From contig CADEER010000002.1 in assembly GCA_902826395.1 (NCBI GenBank), forward strand, positions 43,016 to 93,258: 50,243 nucleotides of DNA, written 5' to 3'. Shown here piece after piece: positions 12,753 to 24,686 of the stretch (position 1 is its first letter; every line of letters begins with the position of its first letter). The notes under the pieces were generated by a model. That model was not told the origin of the DNA and made no database searches. It saw only the letters and a list, made by a program, of their open reading frames with translations. Source of the DNA: an uncultured bacterium. GTDB lineage: Bacteria; Desulfobacterota; Binatia; HRBIN30; CADEER01. The position numbers and the translations under genes are program-made.

Positions 12753-13883
12753 ATGGCGAAGCCTGTTCTCTCCGCGCCCACCGGCGCGCGCCAGCACGCC
12801 ACCTTGTGGGAAAACGTGCTGCGCCACTTCAAAGACGCTGTGATTGTCCTCGATACGGAGTCGACGGTCGTGTTCGTCAACCAAGCGGCCGAGGAACTGA
12901 CACGTACCCCGCGTGCCAAGGCCCTGGGATACCCGTGCGACCACCTCTTTCCGGATTCCCTGTTTCTCTCCGAAATGGTGTTACGCGCATGCAATCTCCG
13001 ACAAAGCGAGACGCGCAACGAGGAAACCCTCCGGACGAGGCGCAAGGCCCTGCAAGTCAGAATCACTTGCGTACCGCTGTTTGACGAATACGGCGACATC
13101 GACGGCGCCGCACTCGTCGTTCAGGATTTGAGCCATCAGAAGGCATTGGAAGAAACCGCGCGCCGCAACGAGAGTTTGGCTCGCCTCGGCACGCTGGTCG
13201 CCGGCCTCGCGCACGAAGTGCGAAACCCGTTGGCCGGCATCAAGGGGGCCGCCCAACTCCTCGCGCAGAGACTGCCCGATGATCCGTTCTTGCGTGAATA
13301 CACCGACGTGATCTCCAACGAGACCGATCGATTGAGCACACTGGTCGGAGATCTCCTACAACTGGGCGCGCCCCCAAAGCCATCGCTGGTTCCGGTCAAT
13401 ATCCACGAGGTGATGCAGAGGGTCCTCACCCTCGTCGGCCCCGAAGTGCGCGACGCCGGCTTCTCGATTCAGTGCGAGTTCGATCCCAGTCTGCCCGAAC
13501 TGATGGCGGACTCCGGCCAGCTGCAACAGGTTTTTCTGAACTTGATCAAGAACGCGCTCGACGCGATGAACGGCGCTTCCGACTCCGCCGGCCATCTCTC
13601 CATTCACACCAAAATGGAGACCGACTACCACATTCTGCGCGGCGCACAGCGCGCCCAGAGCTACCTACGCGTCGAGATCAACGACTCCGGTCCCGGCATC
13701 GATCCGGACATCCTCTCCCACATTTTCGAGCCGTTCTACACGACGAAGGCGCGCGGCACGGGCCTCGGCCTGGCGATTGCGCAGCGCATTATCTCCGATC
13801 ACAACGGCATGATCCGCGCCTTCCCGGCCGAACCTCACGGCACGAAGATGTGGGTCAGCCTTCCGATCCGAAAGGCATCGTGA
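12753..13883 (+). CDS. NtrB-like PAS-domain sensor histidine kinase
   Basis: A soluble two-component kinase of 376 residues. Residues 22-125 form a PAS domain of the NtrB type. The dimerisation/phosphoacceptor region has the H-box GLAHEVRNPLAGIKGAAQLL with His154. The ATPase domain shows the N box (LNLIKNALDAM), the G1 box (DSGPGIDPDI), FEPFYTTK and the G2 box [11 protein letters not shown]. No membrane segments are present, so the signal is cytoplasmic. It lies 6 bases upstream of an NtrC-type activator, its evident partner. The H-box is close to true NtrB (GlnL), but no glnA or glnB neighbours are present, so nitrogen control is possible rather than shown. Confidence 0.9.
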   Translation: MAKPVLSAPTGARQHATLWENVLRHFKDAVIVLDTESTVVFVNQAAEELTRTPRAKALGYPCDHLFPDSLFLSEMVLRACNLRQSETRNEETLRTRRKALQVRITCVPLFDEYGDIDGAALVVQDLSHQKALEETARRNESLARLGTLVAGLAHEVRNPLAGIKGAAQLLAQRLPDDPFLREYTDVISNETDRLSTLVGDLLQLGAPPKPSLVPVNIHEVMQRVLTLVGPEVRDAGFSIQCEFDPSLPELMADSGQLQQVFLNLIKNALDAMNGASDSAGHLSIHTKMETDYHILRGAQRAQSYLRVEINDSGPGIDPDILSHIFEPFYTTKARGTGLGLAIAQRIISDHNGMIRAFPAEPHGTKMWVSLPIRKAS

Positions 13884-13889
13884 CACGCG

Positions 13890-15353
13890 ATGGACTCCGA
13901 CAGACGTACGATTCTTGTTGCCGATGACGAGGCGTCGATACGCTGGGTTCTCGCCAAAGCTCTCGAAGAGTCCGGGCACACGGTCGTGCAAGCCGAATCC
14001 GGCGTCGAGGCGCTGAACTGCTTGCGCACTCAGCGCATCGACGCGGCTTTCATCGACCTGCGCATGCCCGGTCACACCGGTATCGAAGTCTTGACCGAGG
14101 CCCGCGCTGCATCGATCCAAGCGCCGATCATCATCGTCACGGCGCAGAATACGATGGACAATGCCATCGCAGCGATGAAGCAGGGCGCATTCGACTATGT
14201 GACCAAGCCCTTCAATATCGACGAAGTTCGCGCGATCGCCACGCGCGCCCTCGAGATGGCGCGCATGTCGACAGATCTCACACGGCTGCAGCGCGAAACA
14301 CGCAAGCGGTACGAGCCGGGGGTTGCTCTGATCGGCAGCAGCAATGCCATGCAGGACATCTACAAGACGATCGGCCGCGTCGCGGACACCGACGCGACCG
14401 TCTTGATTCAGGGCGAGAGTGGAACGGGCAAAGACCTGATAGCCAAAGTCCTTCACTATCACTCGGCGCGCTGGTCGAATCCTTTCGTGGCGTTGAATTG
14501 CTCGGCCATCCCGCGCGAGCTTCTGGAGAGCGAGCTGTTCGGCTACGAGCGCGGCGCCTTCACCGGCGCCTCGGAGCAACGCGCCGGCAAGTTCGAGCAG
14601 GCGGACGGCGGCACTCTTCTACTGGACGAGATCGGCGACATGCCCCTCGAACTGCAAACCAAGCTTTTGCGGGTCTTGCAGGAGCGCGAAGTCACTCGTC
14701 TGGGCGGCAGCCAGGTGATCCCCGTCACATGCCGCGTGCTCGCCGCCACCAACCAGCCCCTTGACCGCGCCGTACAGCAAGGGCGCTTTCGCGAAGACCT
14801 CTACTTCCGGCTCAACGTAGTTCCCATTCGGGTTCCGCCGCTGCGCGATCGCCGTAGCGACATCGAAGAGCTGATCGATTTCTTTCTCGAAAAGATCCAC
14901 GCCGAAATGGGCACGAGGATCTCCGCGATCTCCGCCGAGGCGCGCGCCAAGCTTATCGCACACGACTGGCCGGGAAACGTGCGAGAATTGGAGAACGCTT
15001 TGATCCGCTCCACCGTGCTCGCAGCGGGTCCAACGCTCGTGTCGCAGGACTTGCTCCTGACTTCGGAACCGGCCACCGCACCGCCCCAAAGCGATGGAAG
15101 TCTCGAGGACCTGATCCGACAGAAACTGGCAGAGCTGTTCCGCAGAGGCGGGGCGATGGGCGAGGGAAACCTTTACGCGAACCTGCTCGAACATCTCGAG
15201 CGTCCGTTGATCGAGCTCACTCTCGAGAAGACGGGCGGCAATCAACTGCAGGCAGCCGCCATGCTCGGGATCAACCGCAACACTCTGCGCAAGAAGATCT
15301 CAGCTCTCGGAGTCGACCCGCGGCGCGCGGTCAGCAGCCGAAACGGCAGCTGA
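13890..15353 (+). CDS. NtrC-family sigma54-dependent response regulator
   Basis: A transcription activator of sigma54 promoters, 487 residues, with three domains. The receiver covers residues 6-120 (phosphoacceptor Asp56 in FIDLRMP, Lys in VTKPFN). The AAA+ domain has Walker A GESGTGK near 174-180 and the sigma54-contacting GAFTGA loop near 222-227. A Fis-type helix-turn-helix stands at the C-terminus (QAAAMLGINRNTLRKKI). All key residues are intact. It follows the NtrB-like kinase by 6 bases and precedes thiE by 5 bases, so the three may be co-transcribed. Best interpreted as NtrC or a close relative; I found no clear sigma54 promoter in the window to name a target. Confidence 0.93.
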   Translation: MDSDRRTILVADDEASIRWVLAKALEESGHTVVQAESGVEALNCLRTQRIDAAFIDLRMPGHTGIEVLTEARAASIQAPIIIVTAQNTMDNAIAAMKQGAFDYVTKPFNIDEVRAIATRALEMARMSTDLTRLQRETRKRYEPGVALIGSSNAMQDIYKTIGRVADTDATVLIQGESGTGKDLIAKVLHYHSARWSNPFVALNCSAIPRELLESELFGYERGAFTGASEQRAGKFEQADGGTLLLDEIGDMPLELQTKLLRVLQEREVTRLGGSQVIPVTCRVLAATNQPLDRAVQQGRFREDLYFRLNVVPIRVPPLRDRRSDIEELIDFFLEKIHAEMGTRISAISAEARAKLIAHDWPGNVRELENALIRSTVLAAGPTLVSQDLLLTSEPATAPPQSDGSLEDLIRQKLAELFRRGGAMGEGNLYANLLEHLERPLIELTLEKTGGNQLQAAAMLGINRNTLRKKISALGVDPRRAVSSRNGS

Positions 15354-17432: not shown

Positions 17433-17657
17433 CGAGCCGGGGACCATACGCCAGGCCGCGAGCCGAGTCGAATTTTGTCGCCTAACCCACCCTCGGCTCG
17501 GGAGCAGTCTCGGCGCGTTCCCGACCTCGCCCTCTAATGATTTCGAGCTTTCAGTCGTAACGCTCTGAGTTTCCGTTCGAATTTGCACCGGCACGCCTCA
17601 GATTTCGGGTTGAAAAAGTTTCCCTTTGTGCTCAAATGCCTCCCCTTGGGGGTGCGG

Positions 17658-18938
17658 ATGGAAACCAAAACCGGGAATCAGGGAATCGTCGGCGTCGTCG
17701 CAGCACTCGCGCTGCTCGCGGCACCGGCCCAGTCGACTACTCTCGGTGATCTGAGCCGGGTCACCGCCAAGGCGGTCATCGTCGTCGACAACACCACCGA
17801 TCGCGTTCTCTTCGCCCGCAATCCCCACATGCAGTTGCCGCCGGCGAGCACGACAAAGCTGGTTACGGCTCTAGTCGCTGCGAACAGCGGTCGACTCGAT
17901 CGCAACGTCCGCGTGAGCAAGCACGCCAGCTCGATGCAGCCGTCGAAGATCTGGTTGCAGCCCGGCTGGACGATGAACATGCATGACCTCGTCGATGCGA
18001 TGCTGATCAAGTCAGCGAACGACGCCAGCGTCGTCGTCGCCGAAGGCCTCGCCGGATCGGTGCCTAGCTTCGCCAAGCGGATGAACACCACGGTCCAGGC
18101 ACTCGGAGCGCGCAACTCCAATTTCGTCAATCCCAATGGCCTACCGGCAAACGGTCACTACAGCTCCGCCGCCGACCTCGCCGTAGTCGTACGCCAAGCG
18201 ATCACGGTGCCCGAGCTGCGAGAGATCATGAGCACGCGCTCGAAGACGATTCATCCGCGGGCCGGGTCGAGGCGCAACATCGCCTTGCACAACACCAACA
18301 AGCTGTTGGGCAAACGGCCCTACAAACTGATCGGAAAAACCGGCTACACGCATCGCGCCAAGCGCTGTTTTGCCGGCGCCGCTTCGCTCGGCGGCCGCGA
18401 AGTGATCGTCGTAGTGCTCGGCTCCACCAACTTGTGGGGCGATATCGAGTTGCTGGTCGACTACGGGCTGCAGCCCGCTTCGCCCGGACCTGACTGGTCG
18501 ACGGAGACCGGCTGGCGTCAGGCCCTTGCGCCGAAGCCGGAGCCCAAGCCCGAGCCTCAAGTCGCGGCCGTGTCAAAGCCCGCGCCCCGACTAAACCCGC
18601 AACCGCGCCAGGTCGCGAAGGCGGTCGTCGAGGCCGATCCGATCGCACCCCCCCGCGTCGTCGCACAGGGAGACCGCAGCCGCGTCACCGCCGAGCCGCT
18701 GTTCCGCTACCACGTGCAGGTCGCGGCGCTGCGCAGCCGAACCCTCGCGCAAGATCTCCTGCGCAAGGTGGCGAAGCTCGGCTACCACGCGTCGATCGAG
18801 CAGAGCGAGGGCGGCGGCGACCTGCGCTACCGCGTCATTATTCGCGACCTGGCCGATCGCGTCATCGCACGACGAGTCGCTCGCGATCTCAGTCGCGACT
18901 TGCACCTCGAGACACAGATCGTCGCGGTAAAGGGATAA
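17658..18938 (+). CDS. D-Ala-D-Ala carboxypeptidase with C-terminal SPOR domain
   Basis: A serine-type DD-carboxypeptidase (S11 family, low-molecular-weight PBP) that would trim the terminal D-Ala of peptidoglycan stem peptides in the periplasm. From the ATG at 17658 it has 426 residues: a signal peptide to about residue 26, then the catalytic domain with S64-x-x-K67, S119-A-N121 and K227-T-G229 all intact. A Pro/Lys-rich linker (about 285-335) leads to a SPOR domain (about 345-420, FRYHVQVAALRS) that binds denuded glycans at division sites. GGGGGTG precedes the ATG; a TTG at 17583 would add 25 residues. The usual PBP5-like C-terminal domain and amphipathic anchor are replaced by SPOR. Confidence 0.9.
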   Translation: METKTGNQGIVGVVAALALLAAPAQSTTLGDLSRVTAKAVIVVDNTTDRVLFARNPHMQLPPASTTKLVTALVAANSGRLDRNVRVSKHASSMQPSKIWLQPGWTMNMHDLVDAMLIKSANDASVVVAEGLAGSVPSFAKRMNTTVQALGARNSNFVNPNGLPANGHYSSAADLAVVVRQAITVPELREIMSTRSKTIHPRAGSRRNIALHNTNKLLGKRPYKLIGKTGYTHRAKRCFAGAASLGGREVIVVVLGSTNLWGDIELLVDYGLQPASPGPDWSTETGWRQALAPKPEPKPEPQVAAVSKPAPRLNPQPRQVAKAVVEADPIAPPRVVAQGDRSRVTAEPLFRYHVQVAALRSRTLAQDLLRKVAKLGYHASIEQSEGGGDLRYRVIIRDLADRVIARRVARDLSRDLHLETQIVAVKG

Positions 18939-18968: not shown

Positions 18969-20231
18969 CTATCGCGCGACTTTCGCGATCTCGCGCAACA
19001 ACGCGATGTTGTCTGCGTGGCCGGTCATTCGTGCATCGATGCGCCCTCTCACCGGGCGGCCGAGCAGATAGAGATCGCCGAGCACGTCGAGGATCTTGTG
19101 TCGGGCGAGCTCGTCGGGGAACCGCAGCTCGGTGTTCACGATCTTCTCGTCGTCGATGAGGATGCAGTTGTCGAGTCGACCGCCGCTCGCCAATCCCATG
19201 GACGCCATGGCCTTCATGTCCTTGACGAAGCCGAACGTGCGCGCCGGTGCGACTTCTTCGCGGAAGCTCTCCGGACCGCGGTATTCAAACGTGTAGCGCT
19301 GCGTACCGACCGGCGGCGGATACTTCAGAGTGTAGGAAACCGTCAGGGAGTCCGCCGGCTCGATCGAGATTCCCTCTTCCTCGGGGTCGTCGCTGCCGAT
19401 CGCGATCCGACTGTCGACCGCAATCTCTTCGACACCGCCGCCCTGCTCCTGAATGCCGGCACTTTCGATCAACGCGCAAAACTCGCGCGCCGAGCCGTCC
19501 ATCACGGGGACTTCGGACTGCACCTTCACGAGCACATTCGTGATCCCGTAGGCGTGCAAGGTAGCCAACAAGTGCTCGACGGTCGCAACACTCATGTCGC
19601 CCTGGTGTAGAGTCGTCGCGTAACCGGTCGACTCCACGAAATCGAGATGCGCCTGAACCGATGCTCCCGACGATAGGTTCGTGAACACGATGCCGCGGCC
19701 CGGCGGCAACGGATAGAGAATGAGCCCGGATCGAACTCCCGTGTGCAGGCCGTGACCGCTGCCAATCACGGAGCGGCCAATCGTCCTCTCCGGGTGCATG
19801 CTCACGCGCCCGCCCGCCAGCGTCGCACCGGCGGGCCTCATCGCGGCATCCTCGGATTCGTCATCCTGTGCGTGATGGTCGAGCGCGCGGTTCACCACCT
19901 GGAGAAGCGAGTCGATCGAGAACGGCTTCTCGATGAAGTCGAAGGCGCCGAGCTTGGTAGCTTGCACGGCGGTTTCGACGTTGCCGTGCCCCGAAATCAT
20001 CACCACCTGCGGCCGCCGCGGCTCGCTGCGCAACTGTCGCAGCAGTTCGATCCCGTCGATATCCGGCATCCAGACGTCCAGGAGCACCAGCTCGGGATGC
20101 TCGCGCCGGACGATAGCAAGCGCCTCTCGTCCACCTTCCGCCTCGAGCACGCGCAGGCCTTCGTCGTTCAGCACCCCCCGCAGCGAGCTGCGAATCTCGT
20201 TCTCGTCGTCGACGACCAGTACGGTGGACAT
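18969..20231 (-). CDS. lpxC: Response-regulator receiver domain fused to LpxC deacetylase
   Basis: One continuous 420-residue frame joins two complete domains. Residues 1-118 are a CheY-like receiver with acidic pocket D8/D9, phosphoacceptor D52 (LLDVWMPDIDG), S80 and K102 (IEKPF), closest in style to NtrX receivers. Residues 119-144 are an acidic then Gly-rich linker. Residues 147-420 are UDP-3-O-acyl-GlcNAc deacetylase, the committed step of lipid A synthesis, with catalytic E219, zinc ligands H220, H378 and D382, and general acid/base H405. These have the same spacing, within a residue, as E. coli E78, H79, H238, D242 and H265. GGAGGG lies 8 bases before the ATG. The gene follows an NtrY-like kinase after 45 bases. 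An in-frame ATG at 19841 with GAGGA upstream could yield free LpxC. Regulation by phosphorylation is inferred. Confidence 0.93.
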   Translation of the reverse strand: MSTVLVVDDENEIRSSLRGVLNDEGLRVLEAEGGREALAIVRREHPELVLLDVWMPDIDGIELLRQLRSEPRRPQVVMISGHGNVETAVQATKLGAFDFIEKPFSIDSLLQVVNRALDHHAQDDESEDAAMRPAGATLAGGRVSMHPERTIGRSVIGSGHGLHTGVRSGLILYPLPPGRGIVFTNLSSGASVQAHLDFVESTGYATTLHQGDMSVATVEHLLATLHAYGITNVLVKVQSEVPVMDGSAREFCALIESAGIQEQGGGVEEIAVDSRIAIGSDDPEEEGISIEPADSLTVSYTLKYPPPVGTQRYTFEYRGPESFREEVAPARTFGFVKDMKAMASMGLASGGRLDNCILIDDEKIVNTELRFPDELARHKILDVLGDLYLLGRPVRGRIDARMTGHADNIALLREIAKVAR

Positions 20232-20276: not shown

Positions 20277-22481
20277 TCATGCACCCAACCCTGTCGCCAG
20301 GGGCGAATCGGCGCGCAACGGAAAATCAATGGCGAATCGTGTCCCGGACGGCTGATTCTCGAACACCCGGACGTAGGCCCGGTGCTCTGCAACGATCGCC
20401 GCGACGATGGCCAATCCGAGTCCGGTCCCGTCGGTCTTGGTCGAGAAATAGGGCTCGAAGATGCGACCACGCGCCTCTGGGATGATCCCCGATCCGTTGT
20501 CCGCAACCTCGAGCCGCACCACCCCCACCGTGCGATCGTGCAGGACCCGCACGTCCACACGCGGGTCTTCGACACGCTGGCAGGCGGCGACCGCGTTGTC
20601 GAGCAGGTTGACGACGACGCGCTTGATCGCCTCGGGGTCGATCTCCACCGCAGGCAGGCCGCCTTCTACGTCGAGCGCAAACTCGACGTCGCCATGCCCC
20701 TCTCGAAACAGCACCAGCGCTTCCTCGACCACTGCGGCAAGGTCATTAGGCGCCACTTCGACGGCGGGTAGGCGCGCGAAGGTCGAGAACTCGTTGACCA
20801 GGCGCTTGAGCTGCTCCACCTGGCCGACGATGGTGTCCGTGCACTCCCGCAGCACCGCGCCGTTTTCGGGGCCGAGCACACTGCCATAGCGCTTCTGCAG
20901 ACGCTGCGCAGACAGTTGGATTGGTGTCAGCGGGTTCTTGATCTCGTGAGCGATCCTGCGCGCCACTTCGCGCCACGCCTCCATCCGCTCTACGCGCAAC
21001 AGATAAGATACGTCTTCGAGAAACAGGATGGCGCCACGTGCCGCACCGGTTTCGTCTTCGAGGTGGATCGCAGTCACCCACGCCGTCAACTGACGGGGCC
21101 CCGCCGCGAGCTTGACCTGGCGCTCGATGCGAGCCTTGCCGCCGGTCGTCACCTCGTCGAGAAGCTCGCGTAGAGGCGCGAGCTGATCCTGCGCCAGGGC
21201 CTCGCGCCACGGCCGGCCGCGAACTTCGTCAGGGTCGAGAGTCAGCATGCTGCCCGCTGCCGGATTGAGCGCCGCGACGATGCCGGCCTCGTCGATCGAG
21301 AGCACCCCGGCGGTAATGTTGCGCAGCACATTCTCGATGTAGCTGCGGCGTTCGTCGAGCTTCGAGTGGGTCGTCTGCAACTCGCCAGCCATCGTATTGA
21401 ACGAAGCGAAGAGGGGTGCGAACTCCTCGTCGCCACCGGCCTCGGCACGATATCCCAGATTGCCCTGCGCCACCTCGCTCATACCATCGCCCAAACGCTG
21501 GATCGGCACGGTGAAGCCCTTGGCGAACGTGAAACCGAACCAGATCGCCGCCAGCAGCACCACCAACGTGATGAGCAACAAGGTCAGCGTGTAGCTGTTT
21601 ACGATGGGCTGCTTCAGCACGCCGAGCTGGCGGTACTCGTCGTAGGCGTGCACGGTCTCTCTGGCCGCCTGACTGACGACCCGCGGCACGACGTAGTCGA
21701 CCACGACGATGGCAACGACACTGCCATCGATGTCGCGTACGGGAACCGCACCGCGCACCAGATCACCATCGGCTGCCTTCTGCGTTCCGGTAAAATCCAT
21801 CCCTCGGAACGCGACGTCGACGTCGGAGGTCGCGACGTGTAGCGTCCGCTCGTCGAGCCCGTCGTCGTGCGCCAGCGCCAGCGGGCCGCCGTGGTCGGCA
21901 ATCTGAATCGCCTGCACGTTGAGGCGGCGCCGTTCACCCTCGATGAACGTCTGCAACCGACTGCGATTGCCCGGCGCCAGGAGATCCCGTCGACGCAACT
22001 CGCCGCCGATCTCGGCGGCGTGATGCAGGGCGTCATCACCGACCCGCTGATAGTAGCGATGCGCAACCTTCAACGCCCCCTCGACCGAGCTGACGACGCG
22101 GACGCTGAACCAGTTGTTGATCGCCTCGGAGAGAAACCCCTCGGCGACCACGAACAGGAGAAGCGTCGGGAACAACGTCAGGGTGACAAACGCCATCACC
22201 AGACGCGCCCGCAACCGAGCGCCGAGAATCCTCTGCCGCCGTTCGACAACCAGCTTTACGAGGTTGCGAGCGACGAGAAACAGGAAGAGGACGAGAAGAA
22301 TGACGTTGAGATTGATGAGCAGGAAAAAGATGACATTGCCCGCTCGCGAAGCGCTGTTGGTGAACTCGGGAAGGCGCGTCTGCAACACCGCCAGCACCAG
22401 GAAGGCGGCGGCGATGAAGAAGATCAGCAGGCCTTCACGGCGGCGGCGGCGGCGCTCCGAGCGGTCGGCCGCACCGGTCAT
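20277..22481 (-). CDS. NtrY-like transmembrane sensor histidine kinase
   Basis: A 734-residue membrane kinase with NtrY layout: hydrophobic helices near 19-35, 50-70, 93-117 and 294-320. A periplasmic sensor region of about 175 residues (120-293) is followed by HAMP (about 321-375) and PAS (about 380-490). The phosphoacceptor region [20 protein letters not shown] has His512. The ATPase domain has [26 protein letters not shown] and GTGLGLAI. NtrY kinases respond to envelope or redox cues in proteobacteria. Its start overlaps the ruvB stop as ATGA, and the next gene is the receiver-LpxC fusion, the natural phosphorylation partner since no NtrX-type activator is adjacent. What it senses cannot be read from the sequence. 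Confidence 0.92.
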
Positions 22482-23515
22482 GGTTCGAACAGCTTCCCTT
22501 GTGGTGATGCCTCTCGCTGCACCTGGCGGCCGAAGTACTCGAACGCCGCCGGCGTCGCCACGCGTCCCTTTGGCGTCCGATTCAAGAATCCCTGCTGGAT
22601 CAGATACGGCTCGTACACGTCCTCGATGGTGTCGCGCTCTTCGCCGATCGCCGCCGCCAAAGTCTCGACGCCCACCGGCCCGCCGCCGAATTTGTCGATC
22701 ACGGTGCGCAACAGCTCGCGGTCCATTCGGTCGAACCCGCAGCGATCGACGTCCAGCAGCTCCAGCCCGCGCTGTGCCACTTCTCTGGTGATCCTTCCGT
22801 CGGCGCGCACCTGGGCGAAGTCGCGAACGCGGCGCAAGAGCCGATTGGCGATGCGCGGCGTGCCGCGCGATCGCCCGGCGATCTCGCGCGCGCCTTCGCT
22901 GTCGAGGGGCACGGTGAGGATCGAAGCCGATCGCCGGAGGATGGTCGCCAACTCGTCGGCGCTGTAGAACTCGAGCCGCAAAGTCACGCCGAATCGACTG
23001 CGCAAGGGCGAGCTCAGCAATCCCGTCCGCGTCGTCGCACCGACCAGCGTGAAGCGCTTCAAATCCAGCTTGATCGATCGCGCCGACGGCCCCTGCCCGA
23101 TCATGACGTCGATCTGATAGTCCTCCATCGCCGGATACAGGATCTCCTCGACGATGCGGTGCAGACGGTGGATCTCGTCGATGAAAAGCACGTCGCCCTC
23201 GTCGAGATTGGTCAGCAGCGCAGCCAGGTCTCCCGGCTTCTCGATCACCGGGCCCGAGGTGGATCGCAGATTCACGCCGAGCTCGCGCGCGATGACGTGG
23301 GCGAGAGATGTCTTGCCGAGGCCAGGGGGACCGTACAACAGCGTGTGGTCGAGACTGTCGCCCCGCCCCAGCGCAGCCTGTATGGCAACCTCGAGATTGG
23401 CTTTGACACTCTCCTGCCCGGTGTAGTCCGCCAACTGAAGAGGCCGCAGTGCCGAGTCGAAGCCGGCATCGTCCTCGGCTGACTGGGGCTCGACGATTCG
23501 CTCTCGGTCGTTCAT
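22478..23515 (-). CDS. ruvB: Holliday junction branch-migration ATPase RuvB
   Basis: RuvB is the hexameric AAA+ motor that drives branch migration of Holliday junctions bound by RuvA. The 345 residues contain Walker A GPPGLGKT at 62-69, Walker B DEIHRL near 113-118, and the sensor and arginine-finger region around [18 protein letters not shown]. The winged-helix C-terminal domain follows ([15 protein letters not shown], then [15 protein letters not shown]). All expected motifs are present and the length is normal. The ATG at 23515 overlaps the ruvA stop as ATGA, and its own stop overlaps the kinase start as ATGA, so four genes in a row are translationally linked. Confidence 0.97.
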
Positions 23516-24099
23516 CCGCTCAAGGTCTTCAAAGCTTCGCGGATCAAGGCCGCGAGATCCCTGGCACCGCCGCGCGCGGCATCGCGCACCGCCCTATCCG
23601 CGTCCGCGTCACGATACCCCAGATTGACCAGAGCCGATACGGCCTCGTCCTCCGGCCCTACCGCCGCAGGCCCGCGCGACGGCGCCGACAGGGCGAGCGA
23701 TTGCACCTTGTCCTGCAATTCGACGATGAGCCGCTCGGCCGTGCGCTTGCCGATGCCGGGAATACCCACCAGACGGCGCACGTTGCCTTCAGCCAGGGCG
23801 GCGATCAGATCCGCCGTCGGAATCCCGGAGAGGATGGTGAGGGCCATGCGCGGACCGACGCCCGATACGGCGATCAGGCGCTGGAACAGTCCTTTCTCGA
23901 TCGCGTCCGCGAAGCCGAAGAGCTCGATCGCGCTGTCTCGCATCTGCGTGTGGATCGATAACTCGACAGCGTCGCCCTCGCCCGGCAATGCGGAAAACGC
24001 ATTGAGCGACACCATCACTCGATAGCCGACGCCGTTCACGTCGACTACCAATCCCTCGGGCGATTTGACGGCGAGCCGACCGGTGAGCCGGGCGATCAT
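23512..24099 (-). CDS. ruvA: Holliday junction-binding protein RuvA
   Basis: RuvA tetramers bind four-way junctions and load RuvB. The protein starts [23 protein letters not shown] in the usual way, has the two helix-hairpin-helix motifs ([13 protein letters not shown] and [16 protein letters not shown]), a short acidic linker, and the C-terminal RuvB-contact domain ([17 protein letters not shown]). I choose the ATG at 24099 because it overlaps the ruvC stop as ATGA and has GAGG five bases upstream; a GTG two codons earlier is possible. That gives 195 residues. The gene lies between ruvC and ruvB in the standard order. Confidence 0.95.
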
Positions 24100-24686
24100 C
24101 GCCACCTCGCTCGCCCGCTGCGCGCGCGGCGCGCAACGGCGGCGATGTTCAAGGCGGGACCACGCGCGGCCGGCGCCGAGCAGTCGATCTTGGCCGCGAA
24201 GCGCGCGGTGTTGGTGTGGCAGATCGCCGCGCCGAGGGCGTCCGCCTCATCCGCCACGAGGTCCGTCGTCACGCCCAACAGCCGCGTCACCATCCCCCCC
24301 ATCTGCGCTTTGTCGGCGCGGCCGCTGCCGGCCACCGCCATCTTGATCGCCGCCGGCGAATACTCGTGCACCGCCACGCCGGAGCGCGCCGCCGCCACCA
24401 TCACCGACCCACGGGCCTCACCCAACCGAAACGCTGTCTGGACGTTGTCGCCGACGAAGCTCTGCTCGAGACTGACCGCGTCCGGGCGATGCCGTTCGCA
24501 GAGATCCAGAACCAGCGCGAAGATTGCCCCGAGCTTGGCGGCGCGTTCGCCGCGCAGACGCAAAACGCCGCTGGCAACCCGCTCCAGCGAATCGCCGGAT
24601 GACCGCACGACTCCCCAACCAGTCACCGTCGTTCCGGGATCGATCCCCAGAACGCACAGGCCCTGCACTGCGGTCCGCGGCTTCAC
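24096..24686 (-). CDS. ruvC: Holliday junction resolvase RuvC
   Basis: RuvC cuts Holliday junctions symmetrically, acting with RuvAB. The catalytic acids are visible as D16 (GIDPGTTVTGWG), E74 (SLEQSF) and D146/D149 (DEADALGAA), with the DNA-contacting GSGRADKAQM segment near 121-129. The GTG at 24686 is chosen because GGGGAGG lies six bases upstream; an in-frame ATG at 24713 has no such site and the frame opens to 24776. The result, 196 residues, is about 20 longer than E. coli RuvC because of a basic C-terminal tail rich in Arg and Ala. It heads the ruvC-ruvA-ruvB-kinase-lpxC transcription unit. Confidence 0.95.
   Translation of the reverse strand: MKPRTAVQGLCVLGIDPGTTVTGWGVVRSSGDSLERVASGVLRLRGERAAKLGAIFALVLDLCERHRPDAVSLEQSFVGDNVQTAFRLGEARGSVMVAAARSGVAVHEYSPAAIKMAVAGSGRADKAQMGGMVTRLLGVTTDLVADEADALGAAICHTNTARFAAKIDCSAPAARGPALNIAAVARRARSGRARWR

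Follow-up and report, generated by a model that had tools for sequence, protein, structure and literature searches.

The subject of this report is a gene that joins a receiver domain of the type found in the response regulator NtrX to a complete LpxC, the deacetylase at the committed step of lipid A synthesis. It lies in a stretch of 50,243 nucleotides of contig CADEER010000002.1 (assembly GCA_902826395.1), from an uncultured bacterium of the class Binatia in the phylum Desulfobacterota; this whole stretch is called the window. Judging from sequence comparison, it is likely that the neighbouring NtrY-type kinase phosphorylates Asp52 of the receiver and in this way switches the deacetylase directly. 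Relatives with separate proteins appear to control the lpxC gene instead, and the fusion seems to replace control of lpxC transcription by sigma54 and NtrX. If this is true, a sensor kinase sets LpxC directly, and we have a rare case of a DNA-binding response regulator that seems to have become the regulator of an enzyme. Candidate stages of this change can still be found in living lineages, and promoter, activator motif and gene content change along with one another.

The fused protein, its conservation and its predicted kinase

The fused gene is a single frame of 420 codons on the minus strand (20231..18969) that runs from ATG to stop with no interruption. A stop codon lies 9 codons upstream of the ATG, and the plus strand over the same positions contains stops. 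A preliminary description of this DNA had given the right coordinates with no strand. The receiver scores 115 bits against PF00072 (Response_reg, cut-off 30.2) and has the acidic pair (D8, D9), the phosphorylatable Asp (D52, the predicted phosphorylation site), the Ser/Thr (S80) and the Lys (K102) of a response regulator. The LpxC half scores 271.1 bits against PF03331 (cut-off 27) and 234.6 bits against TIGR00325 (cut-off 187.25), which places it within that family; it matches the fold of solved LpxC structures and has the zinc ligands and catalytic residues E219, H220, H378, D382 and H405. Every one of these residues had been named in the preliminary description and all were confirmed, and its view that both halves look functional is borne out to the extent that the active residues are kept in each.

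The same description had called the receiver NtrX-like, and we agree. NCBIfam NtrX was the top receiver match among the 25 models shown, and the best receiver matches in the PDB were 5m7n ('Nitrogen assimilation regulatory protein') and 4d6x ('Fis family protein'), both of which we take to be Brucella NtrX. The window protein is not itself an NtrX: model NF051870 gives 131.6 bits, from the receiver part alone, against a cut-off of 600, and the Pfam scan found neither an AAA+ nor a helix-turn-helix (HTH) output in it.

The preliminary description proposed looking for the domain fusion across genomes. Of the 148 genomes of the window's class, 140 match the fusion at an E-value of 1e-30 or better and 8 have no match; in 133 the receiver runs into LpxC in a single frame, one of these (G485) with an internal TGA. 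Four genomes (G416, G421, G402 and G514) have a partial receiver joined to LpxC in truncated matches, and three (G459, G505 and G446) show LpxC only, at a contig start or end where the receiver is thus unseen. LpxC was present in 136 of the 143 class genomes searched and was single copy in 135 of these, the exception being G510 with an ordinary LpxC besides the fusion; therefore the fusion should be the working enzyme. The host might also have had an ordinary LpxC as a second copy, but this was rejected, as the genome shows one LpxC match in all; LpxK is also encoded. In a sample of the phylum LpxC was found in 363 of 395 genomes and the fusion in 91, of which, by count of rows, 16 belong to the class and 75 do not. 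DNA was fetched for 73 of the latter, and the receiver precedes LpxC in frame in all but G104 (locus L185).

The residues are kept as well as the architecture. D52 is present in 91 of 92 distinct receiver-LpxC proteins and in 20 of 20 that also have an AAA+ domain (111/112), the exception being L198, where the receiver match is partial and the first part of the receiver is missing from the frame. K102 is kept in 92/92 and 20/20 of the same proteins, and the five LpxC catalytic residues in 117/117 fused-type domains. These residue counts apply after rows open at the 3' end, rows without a receiver and duplicates were dropped. Such conservation of fusion and residues goes far beyond what chance or an assembly slip would leave. 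A frameshift or assembly error joining two genes, which the preliminary description had named as one of the findings that could overturn it, was rejected through this conservation across assemblies. Most of the genomes are drafts, and single broken-frame loci do exist (L198, L185), but the fusion recurs in many different assemblies of both the class and the phylum, and among the 136 class genomes with LpxC only the three that break off at contig ends leave the receiver unseen. We give this explanation practically no weight.

The NtrY-type gene sits 45 bases upstream of the fusion on the same strand. Its product has the H-box HEIKNP at residue 512, and the NtrY_N region (PF19312, 35.7 bits, cut-off 23.2) is found together with the HisKA and HATPase_c kinase core. 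In the branch of the class, an NtrY-like kinase adjoins the fusion on the same strand at 45 of 50 loci, some of which are duplicates, and the other five have at most 2 bases of DNA upstream. The idea that each fused gene adjoins its kinase was rejected, given the many loci outside the class that lack one, and a test for orphan kinases followed. NtrY was found over nearly its full length in 15 of the 16 fused genomes searched (split in two within one frame in G143, and in four genomes with one stop counted inside the match); G393 had no NtrY-like kinase at an E-value of 1e-40. All 11 NtrY genes examined away from the fusion are orphans: their fetched flanks, about 0.8-3.3 kb, contain neither a receiver gene nor an NtrX gene.

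Several irregular loci and copy numbers were seen along the way. At L185 (with L021) and at L198 the start of the receiver is not in the LpxC frame, which points to sequence error or decay. G208, G252 and G047 each have a fused and an ordinary LpxC copy; in G208 and G252 the fused one (L146, L147) is a divergent receiver-LpxC on a long branch, a second copy beside the ordinary LpxC. G393, listed as 75% complete, has two fused receiver-LpxC copies (L141, L142). Eight genomes of family f47 listed as 99-100% complete (G076, G109, G138, G165, G190, G213, G235 and G256) gave no LpxC match, and G040 and G297 of the same family gave one.

NtrX, lpxC promoters and longer fusions in relatives

None of 28 fused genomes gave a strong stand-alone NtrX, compared with 73 of the 81 others that have LpxC (Fisher p 3.7e-19, uncorrected for kinship). 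The search with the NtrX model covered 118 phylum genomes, from which nine with no clear LpxC were left out. Strong here means an E-value below 1e-130. This limit was placed between two groups of scores once both were known, and no genome of the sample reached the 600 bits that the model itself demands. The fused and ordinary lists were compiled by eye, and the 81 ordinary genomes are those not among the fused rows, with G093, G094 and G115 having partial LpxC matches only. The same pattern can be seen within one family, f34, where G027 is fused and lacks NtrX, whereas G064 and G099 have an ordinary LpxC and NtrX.

Where the genes are separate they can lie together. The order lpxC-ntrY-ntrX on one strand, with an NtrY-like kinase in between, was found in 15 of 15 separate-gene genomes, which had been chosen because lpxC and ntrX lay close; elsewhere in the sample many genomes have the two far apart or on separate contigs. 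DVU2934, a regulator of D. vulgaris, is reported to have lpxC as its only target, and the operon of the orthologous regulator in S. fumaroxidans has lpxC directly upstream of it (PMC3333781). By analogy, this arrangement fits the clusters described here.

The promoters also differ. Before 20 of 47 ordinary lpxC genes there is a sigma54-like -24/-12 site with 10 or more of its 11 positions matching, against 0.12 expected, at 31-93 bases before the chosen start. No such site was found before the fused gene (0/110, 0.22 expected) or before ntrY of the fused operons (0/25, 0.16 expected). At 9 of 11 positions the counts are 37/47 for ordinary lpxC (2.6 expected) and 7/110 for the fused gene (5.2 expected), and the ntrY genes of the 15 separate clusters have no site above 8/11. 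Expected counts come from first-order shuffles, some rows are close relatives, and genes with less than 200 bases upstream were dropped. Loci such as L085, L090, L092, L094, L243 and L254 are examples of ordinary lpxC with sigma54-type sites, apparently a common control in the phylum. Control of lpxC by sigma54 already has a precedent, because predicted sigma54 regulation has been reported as enriched for the LpxC COG in Myxococcia (PMC12316311).

The fusion also exists in a longer form. Of the 91 fused phylum genomes 20 have it, with a frame of roughly 630-820 residues (about 730). The seven long-form proteins that were scanned consist of a receiver, a sigma54-type AAA+ domain, an AAA lid and LpxC. 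HTH_8 scored in none of these seven; an HTH-like end is visible by eye in 16 of the 20 distinct long forms, the four that lack it belonging to family f61. A database search with one long form listed its best 120 hits, all with LpxC and sigma54-AAA+ domains; most of these also have a receiver, several are named NtrX by their source, and one (P0184) has HTH_8. By domain content, then, LpxC is found fused to a complete NtrX as well as to the receiver only. This modifies the earlier suggestion that the output of NtrX had been exchanged for an enzyme. LpxC does stand as the output, but given the whole-NtrX-LpxC forms with a decayed AAA+ domain the change was no simple exchange.

The decay is seen in the motifs. 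The DE of Walker B is present in 39/39 stand-alone phylum NtrX and in 0/20 fused AAA+ domains, and the sigma54-contact motif G[AS]FTGA in 38/39 and 0/20, while Walker A is kept in 20/20 of the fused domains. The receiver could likewise be a structural or dimerising leftover of the gene fusion for which phosphorylation no longer matters, and the persistence of the long-form AAA+ domain after loss of both the Walker B acidic pair and the sigma54 motif shows that such parts can linger. However, D8, D9, D52, S/T80 and K102 have stayed nearly invariant in all fused forms while the AAA+ motifs decayed, and NtrY has been kept in nearly all of the fused genomes searched. We find a leftover receiver quite improbable.

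Order of events and mechanism of the proposed switch

In the scheme we propose, an ancestral NtrX would have activated lpxC at its sigma54 promoter, and an end-to-end fusion of NtrX and LpxC would then have taken over control. The AAA+/HTH output of the fusion would have decayed and been lost in lines such as the window's class. NtrY would phosphorylate D52 and thereby set the deacetylase activity of LpxC. Phosphorylation would act on the enzyme and most likely activate it, the unphosphorylated receiver being docked on LpxC and restraining it, by analogy with CheB, in which the unphosphorylated receiver docks on and restrains the enzyme domain. We expect activation since the separate genes have the look of a system with a sigma54 activator.

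Living lineages offer candidates for the steps: the separate-gene cluster, the full NtrX-LpxC with a dead AAA+ domain, and the receiver-LpxC. The whole history would be that a sigma54-dependent NtrX activating lpxC was swallowed by LpxC, that its AAA+ domain died and then vanished and the promoter was lost, and that a phosphate-gated LpxC under the command of NtrY was left, with lineages still showing the steps. For this history we see the chances as evenly balanced, below those of the kinase-receiver switch itself, for reasons that come from the phylogeny.

Of the 151 distinct domains in the LpxC tree, 117 are fused or fused-type and 34 ordinary, and a branch with a Shimodaira-Hasegawa-like approximate likelihood ratio (SH-aLRT) support of 100 separates the two sets. 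Four of the 117 have no visible receiver (three at contig ends, plus L021), 30 of the 34 ordinary LpxCs are the best-scoring loci of the phylum search and not a random draw, and domains below 230 residues and duplicates, L024 among them, were dropped. The window's class is not one branch in this tree. In a receiver+AAA+ tree, from which NtrX rows outside 400-520 residues were dropped, the 20 long forms group together on a single branch (99), opposite 39 stand-alone NtrX from the phylum and 41 from other bacteria. When receiver and LpxC were joined in one tree of 124 rows, with the 15 separate-gene clusters as outgroup, fused and separate forms again split at 100; L146, L147, L198, 3'-open rows and receivers below 60 bits were dropped from this joint tree. 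We infer that the long form came first, because stand-alone NtrX has the AAA+ domain.

Looking at what speaks against these readings, the first group of points concerns the order of events. Five receiver-only sequences from the window's class, all of family f5, lie outside the remaining fused forms in the LpxC tree, apart from the rest of the class. The LpxC places of loci L010, L011, L013, L014 and L016 coincide with those of G429, G430, G304, G424 and G431, which are of this family. The AAA label needs at least two changes on the LpxC tree, and in the joint tree a weak branch (63) sets the AAA forms to one side, with a long-branch warning. The trees disagree on where the AAA forms stand and so give no single order or count of AAA+ losses, and this together with the place of f5 is why the staged history is held at even weight. 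Other points concern the replaced control. Eight of the 81 ordinary-LpxC genomes also lack a strong NtrX, and NtrX of other bacteria lacks GAFTGA as well (0/41), so that loss of this motif alone is not special to the fusion. The sigma54 sites were called by consensus, and their scores change with the choice of start codon (L244 scored 7/11 in one scan and 10 in another), the scan covered the DNA just upstream of genes, which leaves promoters further away, such as before ruvA, outside it, and at 9/11 the ntrY genes of fused operons have 4/25 sites against 1.9 expected. Finally, a nearby kinase is absent at many fused loci outside the class, and in the alphaproteobacteria R. sphaeroides and C. 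crescentus NtrYX represses transcription of lpxC, so the sign of the switch is uncertain (PMC12444477, PMC7240162). For R. sphaeroides it is also reported that no NtrX site was found upstream of lpxC (PMC7240162).

An AlphaFold2 model of the fusion, built on an alignment of 62 sequences, has a mean predicted local distance difference test (pLDDT) score of 90.5 and a predicted template modelling (pTM) score of 0.87. A helix spans residues 106-129, and pLDDT falls below 50 at linker residues 130-141. Because a pTM of this size is hard to reach for domains of about 120 and 275 residues whose relative placement is undefined, the model lends support to a receiver docked on LpxC in a defined placement. 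The preliminary description had proposed structure prediction for this interface. In the prediction the interface was judged from the pTM value, which also weakens the case for docking.

The C-terminal tail of LpxC raises another possibility. After the last catalytic histidine, fused forms have 14-23 residues (median 16, n=116; 15 past H405 in the window protein) and ordinary ones 22-52 (median 45, n=34), and it is in this tail that E. coli LpxC carries its FtsH degron (PMC12444477). With the degron region largely missing, other control of turnover may therefore have taken over, and the receiver could set the amount or place of LpxC and not its rate, phosphorylation altering protease susceptibility or holding LpxC at the membrane kinase NtrY. 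The defined placement in the model is a point against this, and other LpxCs also lack the degron, with no receiver mentioned for them in the available text of that source (PMC12444477). We consider control of amount or place unlikely, if well ahead of a leftover receiver. For the host, control by LapB and FtsH was considered and set aside: LapB was not shown, as the only Zn_ribbon_LapB match in the genome reads by eye as RadA, and FtsH was not searched for.

A direct phospho-switch can be compared with what is known of LpxC and of response regulators. Ordinary LpxC (PF03331, TIGR00325; UDP-3-O-acyl-GlcNAc deacetylase) shares the fold, the catalytic residues and scores above the cut-off, but the fusion has an N-terminal receiver, lacks most of the C-terminal tail and belongs to its own branch. 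Among response regulators with an enzyme output, those like CheB also join a receiver to an enzyme that it would gate. These regulators are already a known kind, and what is unusual here is the evolutionary evidence; we know of no other response regulator with an LpxC output.

Known controls of LpxC, as set out in a 2025 review of lipid A regulation, are proteolysis, a partner enzyme and transcription (PMC12444477). NtrY-NtrX systems share the NtrX-like receiver and a kinase with NtrY_N and affect lpxC transcription, whereas the output of the window protein is LpxC, with no AAA+ or DNA-binding domain. In Pseudomonas, LpxC-MurA is likewise a direct control of LpxC activity at the protein level, but there a separate enzyme binds LpxC, and here the regulator is in the same chain and phospho-responsive by prediction. 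The LpxC-LapB-FtsH system of E. coli is also a post-transcriptional control of this step, although it works by proteolysis through a C-terminal degron, and the tail is short in the fusion (all PMC12444477). The main text of that review contains none of the words 'fused', 'fusion', 'receiver' or 'response regulator'. The preliminary description knew of no characterised case of this architecture, and in line with this no receiver-LpxC fusion was found described in the literature by title or start of abstract, a scope with subscription papers mostly outside it.

Other features of the window

The coordinates of the fused gene, its parts and the genes around it are collected in Table 1. Because ruvA and ruvB overlap the genes downstream of them, ruvA, ruvB, ntrY and the fusion probably form one transcript.

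Table 1. The fused gene and neighbouring features, in positions of the window
Feature	Position	Strand	Basis
Fused gene: NtrX-type receiver, linker and complete LpxC, 420 aa	18969..20231	-	One frame, Pfam, conserved in relatives
Receiver domain, residues 4-113; D8, D9, D52, S80, K102	19893..20222	-	PF00072
Long alpha-5 helix extension and flexible linker	19788..19892	-	AlphaFold2 model
LpxC deacetylase domain, residues 149-416; E219, H220, H378, D382, H405	18984..19787	-	PF03331
NtrY-type membrane histidine kinase, 734 aa, predicted partner	20277..22481	-	NtrY_N, HAMP, PAS, HisKA, HATPase_c
ruvB and ruvA, directly upstream, overlaps of a few bases	22478..24105	-	Frames, NCBIfam
NtrB/NtrC-like pair	12753-15353	+	
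D-Ala-D-Ala carboxypeptidase with SPOR domain	17583-18938	+	

Two further features were seen on the plus strand. The separate NtrB/NtrC-like pair lies next to thiE and consists of a PAS kinase and a regulator with receiver, sigma54 AAA+ and HTH domains in which GAFTGA is intact. The carboxypeptidase is convergent with the fusion and puts a cell-wall gene beside a lipid A gene.
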